From: Flavobacterium psychrophilum
GTDB taxonomy: Bacteria > Bacteroidota > Bacteroidia > Flavobacteriales > Flavobacteriaceae
Assembly: GCA_945890865.1 (NCBI GenBank)
Contig: CAMDDB010000011.1
Span: 1 to 64,000 of the forward strand
DNA: 64,000 nucleotides
Direction of reading: 5' to 3'
Below, one piece after another: positions 39,999 to 48,272 of the stretch. Every line of letters begins with the position of its first letter. The stretch's first letter is position 1. The notes under the pieces were generated by a model. It had not been told where the DNA came from, did not search any database, and saw only the letters and a list, made by a program, of their open reading frames with translations. Both the position numbers and the translations under genes were made by a program.

Positions 39999-40082
39999 TT
40001 ATTTGGCTATAAAGTATAAAAAAATAGCTACTTTTGTCGTTGAATTTTGGTTGTTGTTTCTGATTTTTTCAAAACACCATTA

Positions 40083-40216
40083 AAAGGGAATTAGGTGTAA
40101 GACCTAAGCTGTACCCGCAACTGTAAGCTACAAAGCTTGTTATTATCTACATTACCATTGTTCGCCCTAGCGAATGAGAAGGTTGATAACAAGACGCAAG
40201 CCAGGAGACCTGCCTA
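40083..40216 (+). promoter_or_regulatory. cobalamin riboswitch
   Basis: A classical cobalamin aptamer is readable. AGGGAA opens it at about 40085-40090. The hairpin TAGGTGTAAGACCTA follows, then the conserved core CTGTACCCGCAACTGTAAGC, a variable arm, and the B12 box AAGCCAGGAGACCTGCC at 40198-40214. Downstream, an 8-bp hairpin CAAACTTT/AAAGTTTG (40230-40253) and ATGGG/CCCAT pairs (40257-40283) could form the expression platform. High cobalamin is expected to switch off the TonB receptor gene at 40311. Confidence 0.95.
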
Positions 40217-40310
40217 ATTCATTGAGTAACAAACTTTCGGGAAAAAAAGTTTGAGTATGGGTAATTCTGTGCTTTTCTCCCATTTATATTAAATTTTACT
40301 AACCTTAAAA

Positions 40311-42245
40311 ATGAACAAAAAGTTTATTGGTATAAGTGTATGTGCATTGGCTACTGCTTTTGCATATGCTCAAGAATCTGATACGTTAAAAGTAAATAAT
40401 TTAAAAGAAATGGTTGTGTCCGACACAAAATTTGCTCAAAGTAGAGAAAAATCGGGAAAAATTATTGAAGTGATTGCGGCTCAAGATTTAGAACAAAAAA
40501 AAGGGCAAAATTTGGCAAACGTTTTAAGTCAGATTGCAGGGGTAGAGATTAATGGAAACCAATCGTTTGCAGGAAAAAATTTAGGATATTATATACGTGG
40601 AGGACGAAATCGTCAGACGGCTATCTACATTGATGGAGTGCCTGTCACCGATGCGTCAGGTATAAATTTAGAATATGACTTACGACTCATTTCAATTGAT
40701 CAAATAGAAAAAATTGAGGTGATGAAAGGTGCTTCGAGCACGCTTTACGGTTCGGGAGCAGCTACAGGGGTAATCAATATTACTTTAAAGAAATCAGCAA
40801 AATCTGCCTTTGCTGGATCTGCCTATACAATATTGGGGACACAAAATACAGCTACTACTTCAAAAACGAGTGCACAAGATTTGAGTCAAGGTTTTATCCT
40901 TAATGGAACAGTTGATAAAGTATCCTATATGACGTCGTTAAATAGCAATAACACAAATGGAATGTCTGAGGCCGCCGGTGAAAACTTCGAAGAAGACTAT
41001 TTTTCAAGGGTCAACGTATTGCAGAAAATTGGAATTAAAGCCAATGAAAATTTAAGTTTTGAAATTTTCGGGAATTATGACCGCATTAAGAACACTTTTG
41101 ATAATTCTTTTGATGGTAGTATTGCCAATTCAGATGATGTGAACAATACAAGTCTTTCAGAACAATATAGAATAGGTTTTTTGCCAAAGTATTGCTATAG
41201 GAATGGCGAATTTGCCATAAATGCCGGAGCTTCAACCATAGATAGAAAACTGAAAATGACAAACACATGGGCCAATACAATAGATGCCTATAATTATTCA
41301 GGACGAACCATTTCTATGGACGCTTTTAATAAGTATACTTTTACCAATTATTTATTTATTGTCGTAGGTACACAGTATCAATATTTTGATATGACACAAA
41401 AAGATGCCTTTACGAATGTATCCAAAAAAGGGGCAAAGTTTAATTTAATGGATCCCTATGCAACGGTAGTTTATAATTCAGCATTTGGTTTGAATCTCAA
41501 TTTAGGTGCTCGATTTAATATTCATAGCGAATATGGTAATCAAGTGGTTTATAATTTCAATCCAAGTTATTCTTTTGCAAATACACCATTAAAAGTAATG
41601 GCTTCTTACAGTACCGCTTTTATTACTCCAAGTTTATACCAATTGTATGGTCCCTATGGGAATTTGGCTTTAACTCCAGAGAAAAATGCAACGGCAGAAA
41701 TTGGTTTTGAAACACAATTTTTAGATAAGCAAATACGGATAAATGCAGTTGGTTTTTACAGAGGAGAAGAAAATACGTTTGGTTTTTTCTTTGATGAAGC
41801 GACTTTTGAATCGTATTATGTTAATAATGGTTTTAATACTAACAAAGGGATAGAGACTACTGTTCGTTATCAATTATCTAAAAAAATAAATTGTGTTGGA
41901 AATTACACTTTTACCCAAGTTGAAAAATCACTAAACCGATTAATTCCAAAGCACAAAGTGAACCTAGAGGCAAATTATAAATTCAAAAAAGGTACTTTAG
42001 GATGGCAATATCAGTTTGTTGACCAAAGAAAAGATGCCTATTATGATGCTATTGTTTGGACCACTCAAGTTAAAAATTTATCAGCTTACCAGCTCATGAA
42101 TACCACTTTTACGTTTGAGTTACTCCCTAAACGGTTAAATATTTTTGGGGCGATTAGTAATGTTTTGAACGAATCGTTTCAAGAAGTAACAGGATACAAC
42201 TCGCGCGGTAGAAATTATAGATTAGGAATTAACTTTCTATTTTAA
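40311..42245 (+). CDS. btuB: TonB-dependent cobalamin receptor (BtuB-like)
   Basis: This 644-residue outer-membrane receptor has a signal peptide (about residues 1-20, ending AYAQ), a short TonB-box region (KEMVVSD), and a plug domain. The plug holds QKKGQNLANVLSQIAGVEI and the YIRGGRNRQTAIYIDGVPVT motif. The rest is a 22-strand barrel with aromatic-alternating strands, ending GINFLF with a terminal Phe. It is smaller than SusC-type receptors and similar in length to BtuB. Its position directly under a cobalamin riboswitch identifies the substrate as cobalamin or another corrinoid. It is divergent from the importer operon. Confidence 0.93.
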   Translation: MNKKFIGISVCALATAFAYAQESDTLKVNNLKEMVVSDTKFAQSREKSGKIIEVIAAQDLEQKKGQNLANVLSQIAGVEINGNQSFAGKNLGYYIRGGRNRQTAIYIDGVPVTDASGINLEYDLRLISIDQIEKIEVMKGASSTLYGSGAATGVINITLKKSAKSAFAGSAYTILGTQNTATTSKTSAQDLSQGFILNGTVDKVSYMTSLNSNNTNGMSEAAGENFEEDYFSRVNVLQKIGIKANENLSFEIFGNYDRIKNTFDNSFDGSIANSDDVNNTSLSEQYRIGFLPKYCYRNGEFAINAGASTIDRKLKMTNTWANTIDAYNYSGRTISMDAFNKYTFTNYLFIVVGTQYQYFDMTQKDAFTNVSKKGAKFNLMDPYATVVYNSAFGLNLNLGARFNIHSEYGNQVVYNFNPSYSFANTPLKVMASYSTAFITPSLYQLYGPYGNLALTPEKNATAEIGFETQFLDKQIRINAVGFYRGEENTFGFFFDEATFESYYVNNGFNTNKGIETTVRYQLSKKINCVGNYTFTQVEKSLNRLIPKHKVNLEANYKFKKGTLGWQYQFVDQRKDAYYDAIVWTTQVKNLSAYQLMNTTFTFELLPKRLNIFGAISNVLNESFQEVTGYNSRGRNYRLGINFLF

Positions 42246-43504: not shown

Positions 43505-43526
43505 AAATCCCTAAAAGGGATTTTTA
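43501..43526. terminator. bidirectional terminator between DUF4252 and crtZ
   Basis: ATAAAAATCCCT / AGGGATTTTTAT is a perfect 12-bp stem with a minimal AA loop (43513-43514), overlapping the stop codons of both convergent genes. Confidence 0.85.
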
Positions 43527-43973
43527 TTTTTTATAGTATTTTAAAGGAACAAGTAGCATTCCAAAACATTCGCCATGTTGTTTTCCTACATGTTTGTGAT
43601 GCATTTTATGAGCTCTTCTTACTGCTTTAGCATAACGATTATTGGCATTTCTAAATAATTTAAATCGTTGGTGTATAAAAATATCATGAACAAAGAAATA
43701 CGCAATTCCATAGGCTAATATTCCGAGTCCTATTGCCAATCCAAATTCAAATAGGTCATAGTTCCAAAGCAAGAAACACCCAATGCTCACTACGGCATAA
43801 AAAATAAAAAAGGCATCATTGCGCTCAAACCAAGAATCATGATCTTTTTTGTGATGATCGGCATGTAAAACCCACAAAAAACCATGCATAATATATTTAT
43901 GGCTAAACCATGCCATAAATTCCATAATGAAAAATGTTGTAAAGAAAATCAATATTTGTAACCACATAGTCAT
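43524..43973 (-). CDS. crtZ: beta-carotene hydroxylase CrtZ
   Basis: This 149-residue membrane di-iron hydroxylase of the fatty-acid hydroxylase superfamily adds 3-hydroxyls to beta-carotene rings, giving zeaxanthin. Histidine boxes are visible: HKYIMH, HADHH, HDIFIHQRF and HKMHHKH, the usual four clusters. Three to four helices anchor it in the inner membrane. I place the start at ATG 43973 (MTMWLQILIFF), though an ATG two codons later at 43967 is possible. It is the last gene of the crt operon, 8 nt after crtB. A lycopene cyclase is needed for its substrate but is not in the window. Confidence 0.92.
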   Translation of the reverse strand: MTMWLQILIFFTTFFIMEFMAWFSHKYIMHGFLWVLHADHHKKDHDSWFERNDAFFIFYAVVSIGCFLLWNYDLFEFGLAIGLGILAYGIAYFFVHDIFIHQRFKLFRNANNRYAKAVRRAHKMHHKHVGKQHGECFGMLLVPLKYYKK

Positions 43974-43981
43974 AATCTTTT

Positions 43982-44821
43982 TTAAATGATATTCAATTTG
44001 TAATTCACGTAGCATTTTGCTAGTAGGCCTACTTTTTCATGATCGGGAACACGAATTCGAGTGTTTTTAATTTCTAAAGAAGGTGTTTTTTGTAGTTTAC
44101 TCAATAATTTCTTATAATATATGTATGCGGTATATACGCCAAATTTTGCTTCTATAGGAAGTTTTTGAATTCCTTCAAAACCTGCATCAAAATCGGCTTG
44201 AATTTCTGCAATGATTTGTTGTTTAGACGCTTCGTCTAAACGAGATAGATCAGTATTGGGAAAATAAGTTCTACTTAAGTCTTCGAAATCTGCTTTTAAA
44301 TCTCTTAAGAAATTGACTTTTTGAAATGCCGATCCTAAACGCATAGCGCTATTTTTTAAGGAATCATATTTTGCAACATCGCCATTTACAAAAACTTTCA
44401 AACACATTAGACCTACCACATCGGCAGAACCATATATGTATTCGTTATATTCTTCTACAGTAGTATATTTTGTTTTCACCAAATCTAACCTCATGCTTTT
44501 CATGAATGCACCAATCAATTCGTTTGGGATGTTGTATTTGTGAACGGTGTGCTGAAACGAGTTCAAAATTGGGTTCAGACTAATTTTTTGCGATAGGGCT
44601 AAAGCCAAATCATTCTCAAATTGAGAAAACAAATTTTCTTTGTCATAGTCGTGAAAGGTATCTACAATTTCATCGGCAAAGCGAACAAAACCATAAATAT
44701 TATAAATGTCCTGACGAATGGTAGGGGCTAACATCTTTACAGCTGTTGAAAAAGAAGTGCTGTAGGCCTTCGTAACTTTTACGCTGCAATCAAAGGAAAC
44801 ATGATCAAAAATCGACTTCAT
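43982..44821 (-). CDS. crtB: phytoene synthase
   Basis: This 279-residue isoprenoid synthase condenses two geranylgeranyl diphosphates into phytoene. The trans-prenyl head motif IYGFVRFADEIVDTF holds the first Asp-rich site (DEIVD near residue 51). YIYGSADVVGLM and AFQKVNFLRDLKADFEDLSR (about residues 166-186) hold the second Asp motif. Length is normal for the family. It starts 1 nt after crtI's stop, clearly co-transcribed, and precedes crtZ. Confidence 0.95.
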   Translation of the reverse strand: MKSIFDHVSFDCSVKVTKAYSTSFSTAVKMLAPTIRQDIYNIYGFVRFADEIVDTFHDYDKENLFSQFENDLALALSQKISLNPILNSFQHTVHKYNIPNELIGAFMKSMRLDLVKTKYTTVEEYNEYIYGSADVVGLMCLKVFVNGDVAKYDSLKNSAMRLGSAFQKVNFLRDLKADFEDLSRTYFPNTDLSRLDEASKQQIIAEIQADFDAGFEGIQKLPIEAKFGVYTAYIYYKKLLSKLQKTPSLEIKNTRIRVPDHEKVGLLAKCYVNYKLNII

Positions 44822-44822
44822 A

Positions 44823-46283
44823 CTATTGATACTTTTCTATTAAATCGGAAACTAATTTTCCTGAAATTAATGCGGGAGGAACACCTGGCCCCGGAACAGT
44901 TAATTGACCAGTAAAAAATAAATTACTTACCTTTTTACTTCTCAATTTAGGTCTTAAAAAAGCAGTTTGCAACAATGTGTTAGCCATACCGTATGCATTC
45001 CCTTTGTACGAATTATAATCCTTAACAAAATCATTTACACAAAATGAGTCTTTAAAGATAATATTATTTTTTATATTTTGATTGGTTAACCGTTCAAAAC
45101 GGGCAATTATTTTTTCAAAATAGGCTTCTCTTAACGCGGGAGTATCTTCTAAACCCGGAGCAATCGGAATCAAAAATATTCCAGCCTCTTTTCCTGCAGG
45201 TGCCGAATTTTCATCGGTTTTAGAAGGAAAACTTGCATAGAATAACGGTTCGTCTGGCCATTTTGGAGTATCATAAATAGCACGGGCATGTACGTCAAAA
45301 TCCACATCAAAAAATAATGAATGATGTTCTACATTTTCTAATTTTTTATCAAAGCCAACATAAAATAAAAGCGAAGAGGGGGCAAATGTTTTGGTGCTCC
45401 AATATTTTTCTGAATATTGACGGTATTTTGAATCGAGTAAGGTTTCGGTGTGGTGATAGTCTGCACCACTTACTACTACATCGGCCATAATGGTTTCATT
45501 GTTTACCAATAAGCCGGTGGTTTTGCCATTGACTATGTTTATTTTTTCAATAGATGCTTTTGTGTGGATGGTTACTCCTAATTCTTTGGCCAAAGCTTCC
45601 ATGGCTAATATTACTGAATACATACCATTTTTTGGATGCCAAGTACCCAATCCAAAATCGGCAAAATTCATAAAACTATAAAAGGAGGGAGTATCGCTAG
45701 GCTTAGCGCCAAGAAATAATACCGGAAACTCTAAAATTTGTATAAGTTTAGTGTTTTTAAATTTTTTTCGAACGTCTCTTGATATGGTACTGAAAAATTG
45801 GTTGACTTTTTTTGCAGTTTCAAGTGTTACCAATTCTAAGGGCGATTCTCCAGGACGGTATACTAAATCTTTAATGGCAATGTTATAATTGCTTTGTGCC
45901 TCGGTCATAAATTGCTCCAACTTTTTACCACTTCCTTTTTCAATGGATTCAAAAGTAGTAATGATTTCGGGTAAATTATCGGCTATGGTTACAAAATCTA
46001 ATGGGCCATAATATACTTGATAGGCCGGACTCAACTTAATTAATTCGAAGTAATCTGAAGGTTTTTTGTTGAAATCGCCAAAAAAACGTTCAAATACATC
46101 GGGCATCCAATACCAAGTTGGGCCGATATCAAATGTGAATCCCTCTTTCTTGAGTTGACGGGCTCTACCACCTATGGTCTCATTTTTTTCATATATTACA
46201 ACTTCATTGCCTGCTTTTGCTAAATAACAAGCTGCCGCCAATGAAGAAAATCCAGATCCTATAATTGCTACTTTTTTTTGCAC
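44823..46283 (-). CDS. crtI: phytoene desaturase
   Basis: This 486-residue FAD enzyme of the CrtI family dehydrogenates phytoene to lycopene. The Rossmann dinucleotide motif GSGFSSLAAACYLAKAG lies near residue 9. The family motif GRARQLKKEGFTFDIGPTWY follows (about residues 43-62), and the C-terminal flavin-binding NLFFTGQLTVPGPGVPPALI lies near residue 450. All are intact. It lies 42 nt after the MerR/CarH-like gene with no promoter motif in the gap, so the regulator and crtI-crtB-crtZ probably share one transcript. Confidence 0.95.
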   Translation of the reverse strand: MQKKVAIIGSGFSSLAAACYLAKAGNEVVIYEKNETIGGRARQLKKEGFTFDIGPTWYWMPDVFERFFGDFNKKPSDYFELIKLSPAYQVYYGPLDFVTIADNLPEIITTFESIEKGSGKKLEQFMTEAQSNYNIAIKDLVYRPGESPLELVTLETAKKVNQFFSTISRDVRKKFKNTKLIQILEFPVLFLGAKPSDTPSFYSFMNFADFGLGTWHPKNGMYSVILAMEALAKELGVTIHTKASIEKINIVNGKTTGLLVNNETIMADVVVSGADYHHTETLLDSKYRQYSEKYWSTKTFAPSSLLFYVGFDKKLENVEHHSLFFDVDFDVHARAIYDTPKWPDEPLFYASFPSKTDENSAPAGKEAGIFLIPIAPGLEDTPALREAYFEKIIARFERLTNQNIKNNIIFKDSFCVNDFVKDYNSYKGNAYGMANTLLQTAFLRPKLRSKKVSNLFFTGQLTVPGPGVPPALISGKLVSDLIEKYQ

Positions 46284-46325
46284 TTTTGGGTATTTTTTAT
46301 AGAGGTTGTAAATAATCGATTTTAA

Positions 46326-47228
46326 TTACAAATAAGAAGAAGTTAGCTCTTCAATACTATTGTATATGTGTATGTTTTGGTACTTATTTTTTTCGGAAAT
46401 ATGCGAAGTCATTCTTCCTAAAATAAGCATTTCGTTGTCGGTGTTTTTTAATAATTTATTATACAGCTCATCTATATAATCAACAATTATTTCTTGGTTG
46501 GGTTCTACTGTGAAATAACTCACGAAAGTTATTTTTTCAAAAGCACTTTTGAGGTCTAACAAACTTTCAATTGGAATGCTCTCTCCTAAATAAATCGTTT
46601 GATAGCCATTCAATAGGATTTCATAATTCAAATACATGATTCCCAATTCGTGAATTTCGTTAGAAGGTAAAAACAAAACAAAAACCCTATCGTCTTTTGT
46701 TGGGGTGAGTGTTTGAACTTTTTCTGTATTTATTAATAGCTTTTGTTTGATGAGGTAGGTGATAAAATGTTCGTGGGCAGGAGAAATGGTATCGGTTTGC
46801 CACAAATAGCCTAATTCTTGCATCAACGGAATAAAAACCGAGTAAAAAACTTCTTTGAAGGTTTTTTCGCTTAACAACTTATTGTATGTGTTAAAAAAAA
46901 GCGTTTGGTCAAAGTTCATCATTGCTATTTTAAAAGTACTAATCGCATGATTTTTTGCACTTTTTTCAGAAATAATATCGTTGGCCAATTGGTTAAATTC
47001 AATAGAATTTAGGGTTGAAATTTTAGAAATTTTATATCCATAATTATGAAGAAGTACTATACTTAATAGCTTTTGTAAGCTTTTGATGTCATAGTAGCGG
47101 ATATTGGTTTCAGAACGCATAGGTTCTAAAACATTGTATCTTTTTTCCCAAATACGTATCGTATGTGCTTTTATACCCGATAAATTTTCCAGGTCTTTTA
47201 TACTAAACACATTTTTTACATTGTTCAT
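46326..47228 (-). CDS. CarH-like MerR regulator with cobalamin-binding domain
   Basis: This 300-residue regulator has an N-terminal MerR helix-turn-helix (residues 6-75, FSIKDLENLSGIKAHTIRIWEK ending at the winged LEPMRSETNIRYYD). A helical B12-cap domain (about 90-165) and a Rossmann cobalamin-binding domain (about 182-300) follow. The CarH photoreceptor hallmark W-x9-EH is exact: Trp143, Glu153, His154. The cobalamin motif ExHxxG is present as E191-I-H193-E-L-G196. The later SxT and GG positions are only partly kept (S237-Y-F and G271-R). It probably represses the downstream crt genes until light breaks an adenosylcobalamin-bound tetramer. That mechanism is inferred from CarH, not shown here. 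Confidence 0.9.
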   Translation of the reverse strand: MNNVKNVFSIKDLENLSGIKAHTIRIWEKRYNVLEPMRSETNIRYYDIKSLQKLLSIVLLHNYGYKISKISTLNSIEFNQLANDIISEKSAKNHAISTFKIAMMNFDQTLFFNTYNKLLSEKTFKEVFYSVFIPLMQELGYLWQTDTISPAHEHFITYLIKQKLLINTEKVQTLTPTKDDRVFVLFLPSNEIHELGIMYLNYEILLNGYQTIYLGESIPIESLLDLKSAFEKITFVSYFTVEPNQEIIVDYIDELYNKLLKNTDNEMLILGRMTSHISEKNKYQNIHIYNSIEELTSSYL

Positions 47229-47255: not shown

Positions 47256-47333
47256 GTAAAAAAATAAACAAAAAAAAAGATGAAGTAAAAATCAATGAAA
47301 TTATTTGAAAAAAACAACAAATAACAGTAAAAG

Positions 47334-47416
47334 TGACCATGGAGGGATTTGAACCCTCACGCCCTTAAGAGCACCACCCCCTCAAGATGGCGAGTCTACC
47401 GTTTCTCCACATGGCC
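47334..47416 (-). tRNA. tRNA-Leu (anticodon GAG)
   Basis: This is an 83-nt class-II tRNA with a long variable arm. The acceptor stem is GGCCATG / CATGGTC with discriminator A. The anticodon loop reads C-T-T-G-A-G-G, giving anticodon GAG for CUC/CUU codons. TTCAAAT closes the T loop. The CCA is not encoded. It is the last of three tRNA genes on the minus strand. Confidence 0.95.
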
Positions 47417-47424
47417 AAAAAATA

Positions 47425-47450
47425 AAGACGTTGCGGTGCAACGTCTTAAA
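47425..47450 (-). terminator. hairpin between tRNA-Asn and tRNA-Leu
   Basis: A perfect 10-bp stem AAGACGTTGC / GCAACGTCTT with a 3-nt loop. On the minus strand it is followed by TTATTTTTT, so it may end the Lys-Asn transcript partially before tRNA-Leu. Confidence 0.6.
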
Positions 47451-47456
47451 ATTTTG

Positions 47457-47529
47457 TGACCTGGCTGGGATTCGAACCCAGGACCCCATCATTAACAGTG
47501 ATGTGCTCTACCAGCTGAGCTACCAAGTC
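47457..47529 (-). tRNA. tRNA-Asn (anticodon GTT), tRNA-Lys-like body
   Basis: This 73-nt gene folds as a standard cloverleaf. The acceptor stem is GACTTGG / CCAGGTC with discriminator A, the D stem GCTC/GAGC, the anticodon stem CATCA/TGATG with loop CTGTTAA, and the T stem CTGGG/CCCAG. The anticodon GTT would read AAC/AAU. It differs from the tRNA-Lys gene at 47558-47630 only at 47496 (the wobble base, G against T). tRNA-Asn usually carries a G discriminator in bacteria, so this gene may be a switched tRNA-Lys. Confidence 0.9.
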
Positions 47530-47557
47530 TAAGCGTTCAAGAAATGTATTTTTGTAG

Positions 47558-47630
47558 TGACCTGGCTGGGATTCGAACCCAGGACCCCATCATTAAAAGT
47601 GATGTGCTCTACCAGCTGAGCTACCAAGTC
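47558..47630 (-). tRNA. tRNA-Lys (anticodon TTT)
   Basis: This 73-nt gene has the same stems as the adjacent GTT gene, with anticodon loop CTTTTAA and discriminator A, as expected of bacterial tRNA-Lys. It is first in the cluster, 22 nt downstream of a TATATTTG promoter. Confidence 0.95.
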
Positions 47631-47652
47631 ATTATTTTCTTGAATGCGGGTG

Positions 47653-47660
47653 CAAATATA
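47653..47660 (-). promoter_or_regulatory. -7 element of the tRNA cluster
   Basis: TATATTTG followed by GC on the minus strand, 22 nt before the first base of tRNA-Lys. Confidence 0.75.
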
Positions 47661-47756: not shown

Positions 47757-48272
47757 ATGAAGAAAGTAATTTTGGTAGGATATATGGGCAGTGGAAAGTC
47801 ATCAGTAGGTGCTCTATTGGCTTCAAAATTAGGCATTTCATATTATGATTTAGATGCTATAATTGAAGAAATTGAGCAGCTTTCGGTCAGTGAATTATTT
47901 ACTAAAAAGGGAGAAATTTATTTCAGAAAAATAGAACACACAGCCTTACAAAAAACAGTAGAAATAAATGAGCCTTTTGTGCTTAGTTTAGGCGGTGGAA
48001 CACCCTGTTATTTTAATAATCACGAGTTGATTTTGCAAGACAATATTGTTTCTTTTTATTTAAAAGGTACTGCTGCAACTCTATCTAATCGATTGCTTGC
48101 CGAAAAAGAAAAGCGTCCATTGCTCTCTTCAATTAATGCCGAAGAATTGCCCGATTTTATAAATAAACATTTATTTGATCGTTCCTATTATTACCATCAA
48201 GTGAGTCATGTAATTACAATCGAATCAAAATCTGTTGAGGCAGTGGCTTCTGAAATATACCAATACCTATGA
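47757..48272 (+). CDS. aroK: shikimate kinase
   Basis: This 171-residue kinase phosphorylates shikimate with ATP in aromatic amino acid synthesis. The P-loop GYMGSGKSS (about residues 8-16), Asp in YYDLD, the shikimate-binding LGGGTPCY near residue 79 and the LID RPLLSS near 118 are visible. Length fits AroK. It converges on a phosphoribosyltransferase gene with a 6-nt overlap at the stop codons. Confidence 0.95.
   Translation: MKKVILVGYMGSGKSSVGALLASKLGISYYDLDAIIEEIEQLSVSELFTKKGEIYFRKIEHTALQKTVEINEPFVLSLGGGTPCYFNNHELILQDNIVSFYLKGTAATLSNRLLAEKEKRPLLSSINAEELPDFINKHLFDRSYYYHQVSHVITIESKSVEAVASEIYQYL

Follow-up and report, generated by a model that had tools for sequence, protein, structure and literature searches.

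An apparent, rare Lys-to-Asn anticodon shift in a redundant tandem tRNA gene beside aroK in a flavobacterial genome

The window, the 64,000 nt stretch of DNA analysed here, contains three tRNA genes identified by ARAGORN, all on the minus strand, which in the direction of transcription encode tRNA-Lys(UUU), tRNA-Asn(GUU) and tRNA-Leu(GAG) (Table 1). ARAGORN placed tRNA-Asn(gtt) at 47456–47529 and tRNA-Lys(ttt) at 47557–47630, and both coordinates include one added 3′ base. The two 73-nt genes differ only at tRNA position 34, where the plus strand carries C at 47496 and A at 47597, corresponding to G34 in the Asn gene and U34 in the Lys gene. This one-base difference had been reported in an earlier note on this DNA and was confirmed by ARAGORN, by inspection of the two bases, and by a 73-base pattern that left position 34 free, tolerated up to 3 mismatches and matched the window exactly and only at these two genes (0 matches expected by chance). 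The distance of 101 nt given in that note is correct as the start-to-start offset, but only 28 nt separate the two genes. The note did not include tRNA-Leu(GAG), which makes the pair part of a three-gene run.

Against the Rfam tRNA model, the Asn and Lys genes scored 71.6 and 72.1 bits, respectively (gathering score 29). Their cloverleaf folds have equal energy (−25.7 kcal/mol), which is unremarkable when compared with shuffled sequences (z −1.35 for the Asn gene, with 21 of 200 shuffles folding as well, and z −1.93 for the Lys gene), and the tRNA assignment therefore rests on ARAGORN and Rfam. A change in the variable loop of the tRNA-Leu gene was considered as a sign of poor sequence but dropped, as one other locus carries the identical stretch. 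The run is directed away from an ORF that, from its sequence, we take to be aroK.

Table 1. Features of the tRNA run and its surroundings in the window
Feature	Position	Strand	Evidence or remark
aroK (shikimate kinase), divergent anchor of the conserved tRNA run	47757..48272	+	ORF; protein matches in relatives
TATATTTG, match to TAnnTTTG, 22 nt before tRNA-Lys	47653..47660	-	
GCATTCAAGAAA, 5′ leader arm of stem bracketing tRNA-Lys	47636..47647	-	Pairs with 47533-47544
tRNA-Lys(UUU), first gene of the run	47558..47630	-	Same body as 25 Lys copies from 13 relative loci
TTTCTTGAACGC, spacer arm of the same stem, between the Lys and Asn genes	47533..47544	-	
tRNA-Asn(GUU), complete tRNA-Lys body, 73 nt, A73, G1-C72	47457..47529	-	ARAGORN, pattern, Rfam, consensus comparison
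Single differing base, tRNA position 34: G (C on plus strand)	47496	-	The adjacent copy and L075 have U
Hairpin then T-rich run between tRNA-Asn and tRNA-Leu	47425..47447	-	Fold z -6.30 for 47410-47456
tRNA-Leu(GAG), last of the three genes	47333..47416	-	ARAGORN; frequent neighbour in relatives

In all 138 loci that have a Lys gene, the window included, the TAnnTTTG motif, which we take to be a Bacteroidetes-type −7 element, lies in the 75 nt preceding the first such gene, in a count made without a shuffled control. By eye, no match to it is present in the 28-nt spacer between the Lys and Asn genes and, because of this, the Asn gene is probably co-transcribed with tRNA-Lys. The leader and the spacer are complementary. 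The leader–spacer duplex averaged −13.4 kcal/mol, compared with −4.8 kcal/mol for shuffled spacers and −9.3 kcal/mol for spacers swapped between loci, and it was stronger than the shuffled mean in 87 of 91 loci and than the swapped mean in 82. This suggests a pre-tRNA processing stem conserved in the flavobacterial run. The hairpin between tRNA-Asn and tRNA-Leu is also present in L075, one of the relative loci described below, and is predicted to be a terminator-like or processing signal. The complementary leader and spacer around the first tRNA-Lys co-vary between loci (for example L096, L103 and L104).

The AroK protein of the window was used to search the family that includes L001, a second locus of interest considered below (397 genomes), and the genus of one member of that family (398 genomes). 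Matches were found in at least 386 and at least 379 genomes, respectively. A set of 142 aroK loci was then compared. The set is not random; it consists of the 30 best family and 30 best genus AroK matches, 80 loci picked by hand from the same match lists so as to avoid contig ends, the window and L001. Among the matches listed, the top one was in genome G773 (locus L075), with identities of 65 % for AroK and of 84 % for the DNA (2,608 aligned positions). The order in L075 is Lys(TTT), Lys(TTT), Leu(GAG), both Lys bodies are identical to those in the window, and the distal Lys gene differs from the Asn gene of the window at position 34 alone. Because this locus, the closest among the matches listed, combines this body with a UUU anticodon in each copy, G34 is the derived state.

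Two or more tRNA-Lys(UUU) genes lie upstream of aroK in 100 of the 140 relative loci, and two or more Lys-type genes in 102 of all 142. Genes with a GTT anticodon were found only in the window and L001, and a CTT copy in one locus. Leaving these two loci aside, the copies differ from one another in 6 of the 100 multi-copy loci (L048, L069, L150, L179, L202 and L205), and among these six the difference affects the anticodon only in L205, which had been added to the hand-picked loci on purpose after being flagged by a position-34 scan. L200 was left out of this comparison, as its sole difference is an N. The relatives' loci strongly support an origin by duplication of tRNA-Lys followed by an anticodon shift, the route suggested in the earlier note, with the correction that the duplication is common to relatives and only G34 is new. 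Some genomes have gone further, and in L094, L100 and L150 the run on the aroK side has expanded and includes six or seven tRNA-Lys(UUU) genes. In L150, acceptor pair 2–71 is disrupted by a substitution in two of the seven copies. In L144 (genome G368), and also L205, a third, distal Lys copy carries CTT, which is an isoacceptor shift affecting the wobble base, and is also altered in its anticodon stem and T-loop.

To determine how rare the G34 form is, whole genomes were searched with a pattern for the Lys body. No Lys body with G34 was found in the 398 genus genomes, none with a base other than U at position 34 was found in a set of 120 genomes, and two with a non-U base were found in the 397 family genomes, namely G001 (G34), which is the genome of L001, and G368 (C34). 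These sets overlap and, counted by handle (G001 to G840), comprise 840 distinct genomes, so that one of 840 relatives scanned has a Lys body with G34. The sensitivity of this broad pattern is good for this locus, as its U34 form accounts for 285 of the 286 Lys copies. A gene shared across the lineage was rejected on these counts. A scan of contigs from a collection of 84,980 species for the Lys body with a GTT anticodon also recovered a single locus, L001, with a narrower pattern whose U34 form fits only 86 of the 286 Lys copies.

L001 is from a Flavobacteriaceae MAG and includes tandem tRNA-Asn(GTT) and tRNA-Lys(TTT) genes beside a divergent gene read as aroK; G001 also has a match to AroK in the family protein search. 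The contig is 3.3 kb long and terminates at the Asn gene, which departs from the adjacent Lys gene at three positions, namely 34, one in the T-loop, and 67, the last of which breaks the G6–C67 pair. Sequence at contig ends is less trustworthy, and this copy may be in decay. The anticodon stem is CTCCC in L001 and CATCA in the window, and each shifted copy matches the Lys gene of its own genome. As the stems differ despite the same arrangement beside aroK, the shift in L001 is probably independent of that in the window. A single ancestral shift common to both is less likely, given the own-genome Lys stems and the relatives with UUU, though gene conversion could imitate this pattern. L001 supports the view that such shifts arise at the redundant Lys locus on the aroK side.

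It is very unlikely that G34 is a base-call or assembly error at 47496 and the gene really a second tRNA-Lys(UUU). Only one base is involved, both copies are UUU in L075 (the closest among the matches listed), and short-read assembly can go astray when near-identical copies lie 28 nt apart. However, mixing of two copies would make them more alike rather than create a new base, and a second assembly, that of L001 (coverage 15), has G34 at the same place. Long ORFs flanking the site are uninterrupted, an argument against an indel-rich assembly but no more than that. As far as the assembly goes, the change is real: a redundant copy in the tandem has undergone a Lys-to-Asn anticodon shift that is both derived and rare.

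The Asn gene of the window was compared with the lineage consensus sequences for tRNA-Asn and tRNA-Lys. At the 18 positions that distinguish them it has the Lys state at 15, neither state at two, and the Asn state only at position 34. For canonical tRNA-Asn, 61 loci were fetched, of which 60 (all but L032) had a tRNA-Asn called by ARAGORN, giving 79 copies. All 79 have U1–A72 and G73, while all 286 Lys copies have A73, and the discriminator bases quoted for the two tRNAs in the earlier note thus hold in this lineage. The Asn gene of the window has the anticodon features of a functional bacterial tRNA-Asn, namely G34, U35 and U36 in a 7-base loop with U33, but it has A73 and G1–C72 in place of G73 and the U1–A72 of the lineage. 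Of the features of tRNA-Lys it has U35, U36 and A73, with G34 in place of U34. It also has the marks of an alloacceptor shift, as it is syntenic with a Lys gene in relatives, has the Asn anticodon GUU rather than the Lys anticodon UUU, and retains a donor-like body.

In Escherichia coli, Asn identity is set by the anticodon and G73 and can be transferred into tRNA-Lys with those bases, and Lys identity is set by U34, U35, U36 and A73 (PMC9976931). By these rules, which may not be those of the host, the gene has three of four determinants for Asn (lacking G73) and three of four for Lys (lacking U34).

Canonical tRNA-Asn was present, in one to three copies, in all 30 of the nearest genomes (the best AroK matches listed for the genus set). 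The possibility raised in the earlier note, that a Lys-like sequence might be the only tRNA-Asn of the relatives, does not hold, and an ancestral similarity of the Asn and Lys tRNAs in flavobacteria was rejected, as relatives carry a canonical tRNA-Asn of a different sequence. In the family, a general tRNA-Asn pattern that is not exhaustive matched at least 175 of 199 genomes, and the 24 without a match include incomplete genomes. The Lys-body G34 gene and a canonical tRNA-Asn (L004) occur together in G001, and we infer that the genome of the window also has a canonical tRNA-Asn. Asparaginyl-tRNA synthetase (AsnRS) was above the curated cut-off in all eight relatives tested, in a search that also exceeded this threshold in 7 of 14 control genomes, and no AsnRS-like gene was found within the 64-kb window. 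Since canonical tRNA-Asn and AsnRS are present in the relatives, Asn decoding does not depend on the switch.

The reading we prefer, with a probability of about 0.5, is that the product is a redundant hybrid tRNA that the cell transcribes and tolerates and that is charged weakly, for the most part with Asn. The weights given to this and the other readings are judgements and were not computed. The ancestral locus would have had two tRNA-Lys(UUU) genes, probably in one transcription unit directed away from aroK, and in the lineage of the window the distal copy would have undergone U34 to G34. The G34 product should form a cloverleaf and read AAC and AAU. The minimal motif for the bacterial TGT enzyme is U33G34U35 in a 7-base loop (PMC4425180), and because the gene has U33–G34–U35, it is predicted to be a plausible substrate for queuosine at position 34. 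Loss of U34, and hence of its wobble modification, should weaken lysyl-tRNA synthetase (LysRS), and A73 and the Lys acceptor stem should weaken AsnRS. The outcome would be an extra tRNA of low efficiency, mainly accepting Asn, beside the canonical tRNA-Asn, and presumably young and near neutral. Given A73 and G1–C72 rather than the canonical G73 and U1–A72, charging with Asn may be too weak to matter.

An alternative that we consider unlikely but the strongest of the competitors is that the distal gene has lost its role and is drifting, its G34 tRNA transcribed but hardly charged by either synthetase and nearing loss. The tRNA would be without one major determinant for each enzyme, and extra copies decay elsewhere, as seen in the broken G6–C67 pair of the L001 Asn copy and the broken pair in two of the seven L150 copies. 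However, the body in the window is intact except for position 34 and identical to that of the 25 Lys copies in 13 relative loci. A less probable possibility is that LysRS still charges the G34 tRNA and that some AAC and AAU codons receive Lys. The Lys state at 15 of the 18 diagnostic positions, including A73 and the acceptor end, and the retention of U35 and U36 are consistent with this. Against it, U34 is one of the three anticodon determinants for Lys in E. coli, where LysRS depends in part on tRNA modification and the unmodified tRNA-Lys transcript is 140-fold less active (PMC9976931). Efficient insertion of Lys at Asn codons should also carry a cost, which fits poorly with the intact gene body. 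Equally improbable is a fixed dual-identity tRNA, which would be charged with both Asn and Lys because one determinant of each identity has been lost, would cause a low, heritable ambiguity at AAC and AAU, and would have arisen at least twice, in the window and in L001.

The anticodon shift in the window can be compared with known cases. In the accessible text of Rogers and Griffiths-Jones (2014; PMC3923123), 30 of 31 alloacceptor shifts are eukaryotic, which leaves room for one bacterial case, and one shift is reported in 61 Enterobacteriaceae. Asn/Lys is among only two identity pairs that recur in the 30 eukaryotic shifts (3 of 30). As in the window, these Lys/Asn changes involve one substitution of the wobble base, and a Drosophila case, GTT to TTT, occurred without other mutation, but the window differs in the host being a bacterium, in the tandem run, and in the direction, from Lys to Asn. 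Wald and Margalit (2014; PMC4041420) describe, as here, duplicated tRNA genes with a mutated anticodon added to an existing set. In their 319 bacteria all five gains by anticodon mutation kept the amino acid, as far as the accessible sections go, whereas the gene in the window changes the amino acid decoded. In a 2013 survey (PMC3868979), changes fell most often on the first anticodon position (2540 of 4245 events), and 8 of 416 bacterial species had at least one switch. The change in the window is likewise at this position and rare in bacteria, but the portion of that text available names no bacterial Lys/Asn case.

Anticodon switching is one of four routes by which bacterial tRNA sets change (PMC7661048), and changes of tRNA identity through one anticodon base are reported in mitochondria (PMC4783518). 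Among the loci compared here, a similar change is that in G368 (L144/L205), where a distal Lys copy upstream of aroK is also changed at position 34, but CUU still specifies Lys and the identity is unchanged, while GUU in the window specifies Asn. Among the articles listed in searches of titles and the opening parts of abstracts (the first 25 of 67 in one case), with subscription journals mostly outside their scope, there was no bacterial Lys-to-Asn shift, which is weak evidence of absence.

The available parts of two surveys of bacteria (PMC4041420 and PMC3923123) report almost only changes that keep the amino acid, and the gene in the window changes the amino acid decoded. A one-base Lys-to-Asn switch beside its parent gene, together with a probable parallel, provides a natural test of the tolerance of AsnRS and LysRS. 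The survival of new tRNA identities through a mischarged intermediate becomes directly testable, as does the effect of a natural G34 switch on protein accuracy.

Next to the tRNA run, the ORFs in 43524–47228 presumably encode carotenoid-like functions (a hydroxylase, a phytoene synthase and a desaturase) and a MerR-type regulator. Elsewhere in the window, a cobalamin riboswitch (40030–40231, 97.3 bits) was found upstream of an ORF (40311–42245) that we take to encode a TonB-type receptor.
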